64,000 nt of DNA. Source: Peredibacter starrii. GTDB lineage: Bacteria; Bdellovibrionota; Bacteriovoracia; Bacteriovoracales; Bacteriovoracaceae. Below, in pieces: positions 28,090 through 62,343 of this stretch. Within the stretch, counting starts at the first letter, position 1, and each line of letters opens with the position of its first letter. The notes under the pieces are model-generated. The model did no database searches, was not told where the DNA came from, and worked only from the letters and a program-made list of their open reading frames with translations. Where the stretch lies: positions 4,030,001 to 4,094,000 of the forward strand of contig NZ_CP139487.1 of the NCBI RefSeq assembly GCF_034259205.1, in the 5' to 3' direction. The translations under genes were made by a program, and so were the position numbers.

Positions 28090-28341
28090 TTAATTTTTCT
28101 CACACTTTGTGTTCTTAGTCTGACATGAAGAAATGATGGTTTTATCTCGGCATCTTGCTAAGGCCTCATTTCTTGCTTCGTCTTTGCTGTTTCCCGTGGC
28201 AAAGACCCTTTTACCGTTTGATGCTACAATACTGCAGGTAAAAGTCCCTGGCGGCCCTTTATATTTATCATTCGGGTGAATCACCTTCACACCAGCACAA
28301 CCTGTAAGTAACAACACAAAAAGAAGGTTTATTTTTTTCAT
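28090..28341 (-). CDS. Small lipoprotein
   Basis: 83 aa; lipobox LLTG|C at residue 15. The mature part has a TFTCSIVASNGKRVFATGNSKDEARNEALARC segment, which looks like a small alpha/beta unit (DUF4189-like) with four Cys. No SD; TAAAAT lies 7 nt before the ATG, suggesting leaderless expression. Function unknown. Confidence 0.65.
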   Translation of the reverse strand: MKKINLLFVLLLTGCAGVKVIHPNDKYKGPPGTFTCSIVASNGKRVFATGNSKDEARNEALARCRDKTIISSCQTKNTKCEKN

Positions 28342-28483
28342 AGAGAAGATTTTAGGCCAATTTTAAAATGATGGAAGAACTTTAGACCCTAGGCATTTTC
28401 CTACCAATGGGGTTATGACAGACAGACTAGAATGCAGCTGGAACCTGCAAAAGATTCCTTTTCCAAATCACCAGCCATTTTTT

Positions 28484-28508
28484 AGGATGCATCCTTTGGA
28501 GGCATCCT
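28484..28508 (+). promoter_or_regulatory. Hairpin that sequesters the ribosome-binding site
   Basis: AGGATGC (28484-28490) pairs with GCATCCT (28502-28508). After one A-G mismatch TCC pairs with GGA, closing a TTT loop. The SD GGAGG (28498-28502) lies within the stem and the ATG follows at once at 28509. Stem strength and position point to translational control, for example thermal or ligand-dependent. Confidence 0.7.
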
Positions 28509-29192
28509 ATGAACAAGTACTTTTTCGCCCTTCTGCTTTTAGTGACTACAGCTGTTTTTGCTCAACCAAGAACCGCAACTGGCATCGCATTGGATGCTTC
28601 TTGGAAAGTTAAACTGAACGATTTCGCACTTAAAAATGTGGCTCACCAATCTTGGGGATATCCACATGCTGAAAGAAACTTTCAAAATACACGTAAATTA
28701 GCAAGGCTTGAAGGCATCGAAGTAGATGAAGATGTACTATTCGCAGCTGCACTTCTACATGATTTAGGGGGGCTCACTGGATTTGAAAAAGAAGGCGTTG
28801 ATCACGCCGTAAGATCGGCAGAACTTGCTGGTCCCCTCCTTCAATCACTCGGTTTTCCAGAAAACAAAATTGATGATGTAAAAGAAATTATTCTTGGCCA
28901 CGTATACTACGGGCCAAAACCTCACGGAGCTGTTGTTCAGCTATTCAGAGACGCTGATATCCTAGATTTTATGGGGACAATGGGCGTGGCCAGACTTCTG
29001 GCCGCAAACGTTGAGCTTGGAAAGAAACCAGCGATTGAAAATTCAACTCTTACGATGAAGCAAATGATGACCAAGCTTCCAGAGGAACTTATGTCACCAA
29101 GTGCCCAGAAAGAAGGAAAGATCAGAATGACAGAAATGCAAAATTTCCTTCAGATGTTAGAAAAGTATTCATTTGGTGGGAAAGCTCTTTAG
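28509..29192 (+). CDS. Exported HD-domain phosphohydrolase-like protein
   Basis: 227 aa; signal peptide cleaved after AVFA, then an HD domain: His in HAERNFQ, the HD pair in ALLHDLGG, a following His in ILGHVYYG and Asp in FRDADILDF. The metal-site pattern is complete, so phosphohydrolase activity on nucleotides or phosphoesters is plausible. Most HD enzymes of this type are cytoplasmic, so the export signal is notable. Its translation start is embedded in a strong hairpin. Confidence 0.8.
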   Translation: MNKYFFALLLLVTTAVFAQPRTATGIALDASWKVKLNDFALKNVAHQSWGYPHAERNFQNTRKLARLEGIEVDEDVLFAAALLHDLGGLTGFEKEGVDHAVRSAELAGPLLQSLGFPENKIDDVKEIILGHVYYGPKPHGAVVQLFRDADILDFMGTMGVARLLAANVELGKKPAIENSTLTMKQMMTKLPEELMSPSAQKEGKIRMTEMQNFLQMLEKYSFGGKAL

Positions 29193-29209
29193 AGCTTTCC
29201 CCTGTTTTT
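29178..29209 (+). terminator. Bidirectional terminator over two stop codons
   Basis: GGGAAAGCTC (29178-29187) pairs with GAGCTTTCCC (29192-29201), loop TTTA, followed by a T-rich tract. It contains the stop codons of both convergent genes. Confidence 0.82.
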
Positions 29210-29620
29210 AATTTTAGTCACCAGCCTCGTCCACGCCAGACTATCTTGGGGCGAAGTCCAATCATGGCCAACTCTAGAAAGGTCAGGATCATCTGGAAGA
29301 ATCCCCAAAGCAGAGATGTAATTTGCATCGCAAATAAAGCACTCTTTACGATAAGGAATTAAATAAGAATCAGGCGTGAGATGTTTTAACGCTTCTTCCT
29401 TATTTGCAAACCAAGTCTTCCATTGAGCACTCCACTTCGGTGGATTCAACACATCGGCCGCTTCGTACTCATCCTTCATCTCTTTCCAAGATGGGTAACC
29501 TGCGGTTTTAGCGATGATGGCATAAGCATCCTTCAAGGCAATTTCTTTGCCCTGCTTCTTCTTCGCTTTCTGTAAAAGCTTCGCCTTAATTTTTAGGGAA
29601 TCAATACTGGAACCTGACAT
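29189..29620 (-). CDS. Small cytoplasmic protein, glyoxalase-superfamily-annotated type
   Basis: 143 aa. The N-terminal ~50 residues (SIDSLKIKAKLLQKAKKKQG...LKDAYAIIAKTAGYPSWKEMK) form the short helical domain common at the start of 'glyoxalase superfamily' hypothetical proteins (sequence-family habit, function unproven). The rest has CFICDANYISALGILPDDPD. SD AAAGGAG lies 9 nt before the ATG at 29620; the longer frame has no SD. Confidence 0.65.
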   Translation of the reverse strand: MSGSSIDSLKIKAKLLQKAKKKQGKEIALKDAYAIIAKTAGYPSWKEMKDEYEAADVLNPPKWSAQWKTWFANKEEALKHLTPDSYLIPYRKECFICDANYISALGILPDDPDLSRVGHDWTSPQDSLAWTRLVTKIKNRGKL

Positions 29621-29800
29621 AACATTTTTCTCCTTTGGTCTTGTTACCGTTCCGTCATTGGTAACCAAAAGATTAAATGTAATAAGAGGGAAACACGAAG
29701 TGAGATTCTCTTTTGACGGACAGGCCTCTTCGCAGACCTCCTCAAAATATAGCAGGTAATGGCTTACGAATCAACCATCGTTATGGATATACTCTAAAGC

Positions 29801-30251: not shown

Positions 30252-31136
30252 ATGTTTAAGAAAATACTTAAAGTATTATGTCTCGTCTTTGGTCTCATCC
30301 TCTTAGGATCAGGTGCCATCTACCTTGCTGCTCATAATAATTTTAAGAAAACTGCAGAGAAGAAATTTCCAGAACCAGATCTGGCCCTTCAAGTTGAATT
30401 GAATCCTCATTGGAAAAATGAAGGAAAACGTCTTACTCAAATGAAGGGATGTCTTGATTGTCATGGCCCTCAACTTGAAGGACGAACTTTCATCGAAGAT
30501 CCTGCCATAGGTGTTTTTTCAGGATCTAATCTTACTCCGCATGCCACTGGCGTCAGTGAAACTTATTCTACCAAAGACTGGGTTCGGGCCATCCGTTTCG
30601 GGTTGAACCGTGGAAACCGATTGTTAAAGTTTATGCCATCTCAGGAATTTTCATCTCTAAGCGATGAAGATCTAGGTAAGATCATTGTCTATCTTCAAAG
30701 CCTTCCACCAGTTGCGAAAAACTCTCGACCTATTACAGTTGGGCCGATGGCAAAAGTTCTCGACTATTTTGGAAAGATGCCTCTCCTCTTCTCTGGAAAG
30801 TACGTGCCAAACGAGCGAATCAAAGTAAAAAGCCTTACAGCAGAAGATACTATCGAGTATGGAAAATATGTTTCATCCAGTTGCGTTGGTTGCCATAATC
30901 CTCAGTTTACCGGTGGACCAATTGATGGGGTTCCGCCAAGCTGGCCTCACGCTTCCAACATAACTTCTAAAGGTAAACTTCAAGCTTACGACTTCGATGA
31001 TTTCAAAAAAGTCCTGACCACTGGAGTGACAAAAGATGGCAGAAAAATCAATCCGCAGTTCATGCCTTGGACTGCAACGGCCGCCATGTCTGAGACGGAA
31101 TTGAAGGCGCTTTACCGATACTTAAAGAGTATTTAA
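30252..31136 (+). CDS. Membrane-anchored dihaem cytochrome c
   Basis: 294 aa; N-terminal membrane anchor (residues 5-27) and two c-type haem sites, CLDCH (67-71) and CVGCH (about 219-223), each in a cytochrome-c-like domain with a late Met (FMPS, FMPW) as likely sixth ligand. Electron carrier at the periplasmic face. GGAG precedes the ATG. No oxidase or dehydrogenase partner is adjacent. It converges on the N-acetyltransferase gene with a 15-bp overlap. Confidence 0.88.
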   Translation: MFKKILKVLCLVFGLILLGSGAIYLAAHNNFKKTAEKKFPEPDLALQVELNPHWKNEGKRLTQMKGCLDCHGPQLEGRTFIEDPAIGVFSGSNLTPHATGVSETYSTKDWVRAIRFGLNRGNRLLKFMPSQEFSSLSDEDLGKIIVYLQSLPPVAKNSRPITVGPMAKVLDYFGKMPLLFSGKYVPNERIKVKSLTAEDTIEYGKYVSSSCVGCHNPQFTGGPIDGVPPSWPHASNITSKGKLQAYDFDDFKKVLTTGVTKDGRKINPQFMPWTATAAMSETELKALYRYLKSI

Positions 31137-62223: not shown

Positions 62224-62267
62224 CTCAGTTTGAATTTCATCCGGGGCTGTGCTAATATGGCGCATTC

Positions 62268-62308
62268 CCGGACGAGACGCGCCGTACCCGGTTAAGACAA
62301 GACGACGC
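62268..62308 (+). promoter_or_regulatory. Guanidine-III (ykkC-III) riboswitch
   Basis: CCGGACGAGACGCGCCGTACC, CGGTTAAGACAAGACGACGC matches the guanidine-III consensus almost base for base. CCGG arms form P1 and GCGcCGT with ACGaCGC forms P2 of the pseudoknot. A T-run follows P2, and the SD GAGGAG lies about 20 nt further on, before the SMR exporter gene. Confidence 0.9.
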
Positions 62309-62343
62309 TTTTTTTAATTACCTAAAAAAAGAGGAGTCTACAC

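Follow-up and report, generated by a model that had tools for sequence, protein, structure and literature searches.

The question raised by this locus is whether a strong hairpin, placed directly before the gene of an exported HD-domain protein in Peredibacter starrii, controls translation of this gene or only obstructs it, provided that the hairpin is present in the mRNA at all. The window referred to below is the whole stretch of 64,000 nucleotides that was analysed, and the coordinates of the features are collected in Table 1. The structure had been described in a sequence-only reading as a hairpin with a TTT loop that holds the whole GGAGG Shine-Dalgarno (SD) sequence and ends at the ATG, and this description was confirmed from the sequence and the fold: the arms form 10 Watson-Crick pairs with one A.G mismatch (28491/28501), and the ATG of the HD gene, at 28509, follows directly on the 3' side. 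An outer pair, T28483-A28509, recruits the A of the ATG and gives 12-nt arms that were 92% complementary in the repeat search. The minimum free energy (MFE) of the 41-nt region was -15.6 kcal/mol (z -4.17), and equally stable dinucleotide shuffles were found in 0 of 200 cases; the 121-nt context was weaker, with a z of only -1.40 and 18 of 200 shuffles reaching the same stability.

Folding also predicts that the stem shuts the SD, with pairing probabilities of 0.98 to 1.00 at 28498, 28499 and 28502 and 0.89 at 28500, position 28501 being the mismatch. The predicted cost of opening the SD of the HD gene, 8.28 kcal/mol, was constant over twelve tested 5' ends from 28440 to 28484, and was 5.0, 3.5, 3.1 and 0.7 kcal/mol for 5' ends at 28488, 28492, 28496 and 28500, respectively. 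No intrinsic terminator (a GC-rich stem followed by a T run) was called at 28484-28508 on either strand.

Table 1 Features of the hairpin locus before the HD gene, in window coordinates
Feature	Position	Strand	Basis and details
TAAAAT, alternative -10-like hexamer	28364..28369	+	with TAGAGA (28341-28346); score 8.97, within shuffle range
Tandem direct repeat, two 13-nt units TTAGGATGCATCC / TTTGGAGGCATCC	28482..28507	+	repeat search; 11/13 identical (85%)
TAGGAT, weak -10-like hexamer within 5' arm	28483..28488	+	TTTCCA (28460-28465) 17 bp upstream; score 7.89, median best of shuffles 8.01
5' arm AGGATGCATCC	28484..28494	+	sequence, folding, repeat search
TTT loop	28495..28497	+	sequence, folding
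3' arm GGAGGCATCCT, abutting the ATG	28498..28508	+	sequence, folding
Shine-Dalgarno GGAGG, in 3' arm	28498..28502	+	SD length 5, spacing 6 nt to ATG
HD gene, putative exported HD-domain protein of 227 aa; signal-peptide-like start MNKYFFALLLLVTTAVFA followed by HD domain (residues 53-155)	28509..29192	+	ORF; PF01966 E 1.9e-9
Coding segment GGATGCTTCTTGGAAA, could pair with 5' arm	28592..28607	+	repeat search; duplex energy

A simple origin for the hairpin is offered by the tandem repeat, since a near-palindromic 13-nt unit that is repeated in tandem forms an inverted repeat automatically. The perfect 10-bp palindrome GGATGCATCC occupies 28485-28494, inside the 5' arm and the first 13-nt unit, and its second copy, with one mismatch, lies 13 bp on. 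A dispersed repeat element was rejected as the source, the 23-mer being found once in the 4.15-Mb genome with up to three mismatches allowed. When a 219-bp DNA query was compared with 97 genomes of the phylum, no related intergenic DNA was found besides the locus itself, and the sole weak match (G160, E 0.009) falls inside an open frame.

The gene behind the hairpin probably encodes an exported HD-domain protein, as had been proposed: the PF01966 match scores 38.2 bits against a cut-off of 22, and the signal-peptide-like N-terminus was recognised by eye and with a hydrophobicity criterion. The HD phosphohydrolase superfamily is characterised by the pattern H...HD...H...H...D, and the HD domain and the pattern residues present here place the protein, by its sequence, in this superfamily. 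Residues H53, H84, D85, H99, H131 and D150, which we take to be the metal ligands, were invariant in five aligned sequences. The best solved relative, PDB 2pq7 (a predicted HD superfamily hydrolase, E 4.5e-10), has the HD domain and these residues in common with the window protein, and HD phosphohydrolases of the PRK10119/YedJ type are alike in the same respects, whereas the window protein differs from both by its signal-peptide-like start, and its PRK10119 score of 32.9 is far below the cut-off of 286. The codon use of the gene is gene-like (+0.24 log-odds per codon); together with the signal-peptide-like start and the full set of HD residues, this argues that the HD gene is expressed at some time.

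Relatives of this protein are scattered. A signal-peptide-like start was seen by eye in 7 of 7 orthologs, one of which (L031) has a lipobox-like stretch. Within the phylum, 6 of 368 genomes, P. starrii included, match the HD protein at E 1e-18 or better; outside this set one ortholog occurs in a MAG labelled Cyanobacteria (54% identical), another is carried by a Novosphingobium plasmid (32% identical), and no relative was found among viral contigs. No match at E 1e-20 or better was obtained in the 25 other genomes of the genus, 12 of the 26 genomes searched being at least 90% complete. The weaker matches in genus relatives were re-examined at 29 loci, 19 with and 10 without a tblastn match, and 0 of the 19 had an N-terminus as hydrophobic as the query's (best 12-residue mean 1.4 versus 2.6). 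Judged by these comparisons, the exported HD proteins form a family of sporadic occurrence, distinct from the relatives' HD proteins that have no signal-peptide-like start, so that the earlier wording "unusual exported HD" is fair. A literature search by title gave, among the matches listed, nothing on periplasmic or signal-peptide-bearing HD-domain phosphohydrolases. In ortholog L033 (match 1501-2163), the frame of the HD protein continues that of a long stretch upstream which resembles a membrane protein by eye (open frame of 843 aa); either a gene fusion or overlapping genes may account for this.

Two observations concern the neighbourhood. A terminator-like hairpin with 10 pairs and a T-rich tail lies at 29178-29201 (+); the stop codon of the HD gene (29190-29192) covers the loop and the first base of the 3' stem of this hairpin, where the convergent ORF 29189-29668 has its end as well. 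Farther on, a gene for a two-domain cytochrome c (30252-31136, +) was without a match at E 1e-40 in the other 25 genomes of the genus, which indicates that the neighbourhood is variable.

The hairpin did not accompany the gene among its orthologs. An SD-burying hairpin was found in 0 of 7 distant orthologs (32-54% identical), whose leaders had 41-nt MFE values of -2.7 to -6.6 kcal/mol and SD opening costs of 0.09 to 4.77 kcal/mol; the start codons were chosen by hand except in L038, and the SD measure says little for L033 and L037 because just a weak 4-nt SD match was found in each. At such identities the sequences are too distant for a base-by-base comparison of the stem, and the absence of the hairpin from them does not disprove a function in its own lineage. 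Rfam gave no match at the hairpin; in the window it recognised only tRNA and a guanidine-III riboswitch, elsewhere (62244-62311, +; 60.2 bits against a cut-off of 36). On the comparisons made, the hairpin appears to be confined to its lineage and not to belong to a conserved regulatory RNA.

How rare such a structure is was judged against a sample made up of the window and 60 20-kb stretches from the same genome (1.264 Mb, 1068 genes called), with gene starts taken from simple callers, so some of the "starts" are wrong or are terminators. Inverted repeats of the quality of the hairpin (11-nt arms, no more than one mismatch, a loop of 3-8 and at least four G/C) numbered 159, against 34 in Markov sequence; 74 of these were situated just after gene ends, 56 in coding DNA, 23 in other intergenic DNA and 6 at starts. 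The six starts include that of the HD gene, and two of the other five repeats (L064, L081) are terminator-like by eye. Calculated from the density in Markov sequence, with each start counted as a target of about 46 nt, approximately 1.3 starts would be overlapped by chance in 1.264 Mb; one such hairpin is thus within chance in that much genome, though unusual locally.

By opening cost, the HD gene start ranked 5th of 163 (SDs of at least 5 nt; window and 20 stretches). A cost of at least 8 kcal/mol was reached at 43 of 796 starts with an SD, against 15.2 expected from shuffled upstream parts, and at 32 of 426 real SDs of at least 5 nt (11.0 expected); in a second genome, G003, the figures were 13 of 278 starts and 5.5. 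At the same time, SD-like motifs elsewhere in upstream intergenic DNA gave 8 of 168 against 2.8 expected, and those antisense to leaders 27 of 300 against 9.0, the latter partly recounting sense-strand hairpins. The coding sense strands showed almost no excess (28 of 700 versus 25.2), and on the strands antisense to coding DNA the excess was smaller than upstream (30 of 700 versus 18.0). SD-burying structure is therefore in excess relative to coding DNA, but, as the excess is equal in size at upstream sites that are not SDs, it gives no pointer to selection on SDs. A lineage-wide class of SD-burying hairpins on exported genes was also considered and dropped, because the ratio for signal-peptide genes (18 of 237, 5.6 expected) was only slightly higher than that for the rest (25 of 559, 9.7 expected) and the upstream and antisense-leader controls had the same excess. 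Two other strong SD-burying hairpins were seen in this survey, L042:572 (-) before a lipoprotein-like protein of 131 aa and L049:613 (+) before an exported-looking protein of 484 aa, neither protein having a Pfam match.

The explanation that we prefer, tentatively and with a probability of about 0.45, is that the hairpin is specific to the lineage, is not regulated and reduces translation provided that its 5' arm is transcribed. An mRNA starting upstream of 28484 would fold into the stable hairpin and hide the GGAGG, translation of the exported HD protein would stay low under all conditions, and the hairpin would not be a sensor but either a passive brake or a chance product of local duplication. 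The stable local fold with its high opening cost and the tandem 13-nt repeat favour this explanation, as do the lack of the hairpin in all seven orthologs, the missing Rfam family, the failure to find an SD-free structure near in energy (see below) and the genome-wide excess that is of the same size at non-SD upstream sites. Against it stands the lack of such an excess in coding sense strands. Moreover, a hairpin as strong as predicted, if formed before ribosome binding, would nearly silence the HD gene, given the 10-fold loss of translation per 1.4 kcal/mol cited in PMC3669281. Expression of the gene at some time, as argued above, would be equally compatible with a switch or with an untranscribed arm.

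Whether the mRNA contains the hairpin depends on the transcription start, and the weak TAGGAT hexamer may leave the 5' arm untranscribed. If this hexamer served as the -10 element, the mRNA would start near 28495 with a leader of about 14 nt that has the GGAGG free at its 5' end and no RNA hairpin, the 5' arm being promoter DNA. We regard this alternative as rather unlikely. The TTTCCA-17-TAGGAT combination has the second-best score in the leader, and the hexamer ends 20 nt before the ATG, like TATAAT in several TldD leaders of the genus (by eye). Scoring used weights of the Escherichia coli sigma-70 consensus. However, both promoter-like sites in Table 1 are within the range of shuffled sequence, and a score of at least 7.89 at such a place was obtained for 4.0% of the real leaders (43 of 1068) and 3.5% of the shuffled leaders (189 of 5340), so the TAGGAT match carries almost no weight. 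TATAAT-like hexamers and TGNTANNNT were denser at -45 to -21 than further up (894 ATG starts from the own-genome sample and G003), but a control hexamer class also rose between -35 and -21, and part of the rise is therefore base composition. A de novo motif search in 279 leaders returned A-rich, T-rich and GGCC-type motifs and no -10. Finally, the best-scoring site, TAAAAT at 28364, would if used give a leader of about 133 nt that contains the entire hairpin.

The sequence-only reading had favoured an RNA thermometer or a protein/ligand switch, and neither proposal held up well. Hairpins that sequester the SD for translational control are known from the MS2 coat gene and from intercistronic coupling, and thermometers of the ROSE and fourU types likewise keep the SD in a hairpin beside the start codon. 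The whole SD lies inside the present stem, which ends at the ATG, and opening by heat or by a trans factor (protein, sRNA or ligand) would also suit the arguments for expression of the HD gene. A local stem over the SD is a general property of such control hairpins, and initiation is held to be depressed once the stability of the stem exceeds about 6 kcal/mol (cited in PMC3669281). However, the SD is predicted to be paired at low temperature and not to melt over the physiological range: the open fraction was 3e-7 at 30 C, 4.3e-6 at 42 C, 2e-5 at 50 C, 1.6e-4 at 60 C and about 1e-3 at 70 C. The known hairpins of the ROSE/fourU type are weak and imperfect, those over the SD of Pseudomonas ibpA having -4.1 to -7.6 kcal/mol according to PMC3669281, against -15.6 kcal/mol and a single mismatch here. 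The same paper reports working thermometers with whole-structure energies of -15 to -21.5 kcal/mol, which makes the comparison of total energies less clear-cut. An RNA thermometer is thus unlikely on the computed stability.

For a ligand- or protein-driven switch, the missing Rfam match, the seven orthologs and the energies are likewise unfavourable. When the SD to AUG region was forced open, the best fold paired the 5' arm with 28592-28607 and was 12.4 kcal/mol worse (-49.2 versus -61.6). Coupling to an upstream gene would need a co-directional neighbour, and none was seen, ORF 28090-28341 being divergent. Coupling to a leader peptide was rejected, because the codon use of the overlapping 65-codon ORF 28415-28612 is poor, at -0.12 log-odds per codon compared with +0.24 in the HD gene; the test is rough, since the value of -0.72 obtained when other genes were read off-frame is a mean that includes stop codons. 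Literature searches found nothing linking an RNA thermometer and the Shine-Dalgarno sequence to an HD-domain phosphohydrolase, and for SD-sequestering hairpins in Bdellovibrio they gave titles on mRNA stability and coupled transcription-translation. Taken together, a true regulated switch of any kind is considered unlikely.

One argument in favour of a switch comes from the genus itself, in which an SD-burying hairpin with compensatory changes is conserved before a rhodanese-like gene (Pfam match; start at G000:C1:3900714 in the own genome; L129:1436-1503; L130-L152); such elements therefore exist in the lineage. This intercistronic hairpin, CCTCTGnTAnAAT...CAGAGG, buries the SD as an inverted repeat in 24 of 24 aligned genus orthologs; a 25th (L153, at a contig end) has the hairpin by its fold but was not among the aligned sequences, and in one of the 26 genomes no match was obtained. 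In the alignment 90.3% of the stem cells were paired, against 42.6-48.1% when the stem was slid, and 15 cells changed on both sides, a number reached by 0 of 500 shuffles, although the number of pairs with two-sided changes, 2, was not above that of shuffles (306 of 500). The stem is situated 9 or 10 nt (10 in 23) behind the stop codon of a same-strand open frame in 24 of 24 cases, and the ATG follows 38-43 nt behind this stop codon (24/24), and translational coupling is thus a natural reading. In all 24 aligned rows its 5' arm matches TGNTANNNT as well, which reads as an extended -10, so a promoter role may be considered for it. No Rfam match was obtained in the three rhodanese loci scanned. 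The rhodanese hairpin differs from that of the HD gene in sequence and in lying behind a same-strand gene. As far as the alignments go, it is an example of what a conserved SD hairpin looks like in this genus, and 28484-28508 offers no such evidence. In the leaders of TldD/PmbA-family proteases (L154-L173; start at G000:C1:1713548 in the own genome), several members carry a perfect TATAAT 20 nt before the ATG that pairs with the SD-to-ATG stretch, and other members of the genus are without this pairing.

The repeat may also be regarded as a DNA operator, where a repressor would bind two tandem palindromic sites, or one 25-bp dyad, at the gene start. Repeats with dyad symmetry are the typical targets of dimeric regulators, and the recurrence of the palindrome 13 bp on would suit such a site. 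This explanation is nevertheless improbable: the motif is not reused in the genome under the three-mismatch search described above, GGATGCATCC itself occurs at two places genome-wide, the other copy being within an unrelated open frame, tandem near-palindromes of such kind number 3 in 1.264 Mb against 1.8 expected, and the Pfam and NCBIfam scan recognised no regulator among six nearby proteins. A three-strand switch, in which the palindromic 5' arm would be paired with the SD arm in the OFF state and with the third motif copy at 28592-28607, after the signal peptide, in the ON state (SD free) according to ribosome position or export state, is hardly credible, even though this segment and the overlapping 28588-28600, which could pair with the SD arm (28498-28508), have predicted duplex energies with the hairpin arms of -16.7 and -18.3 kcal/mol.

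The locus thus supports a general caution: an SD hairpin says little in favour of a switch unless compensatory changes are seen in orthologs, as they are for the rhodanese-like gene, because opening costs of this size were found at 43 of 796 sampled starts and are no more over-represented there than at other intergenic sites. If the hairpin before the HD gene is functional, it would be one more SD-hiding hairpin, placed on an exported HD enzyme that would act on a substrate outside the cytoplasm.
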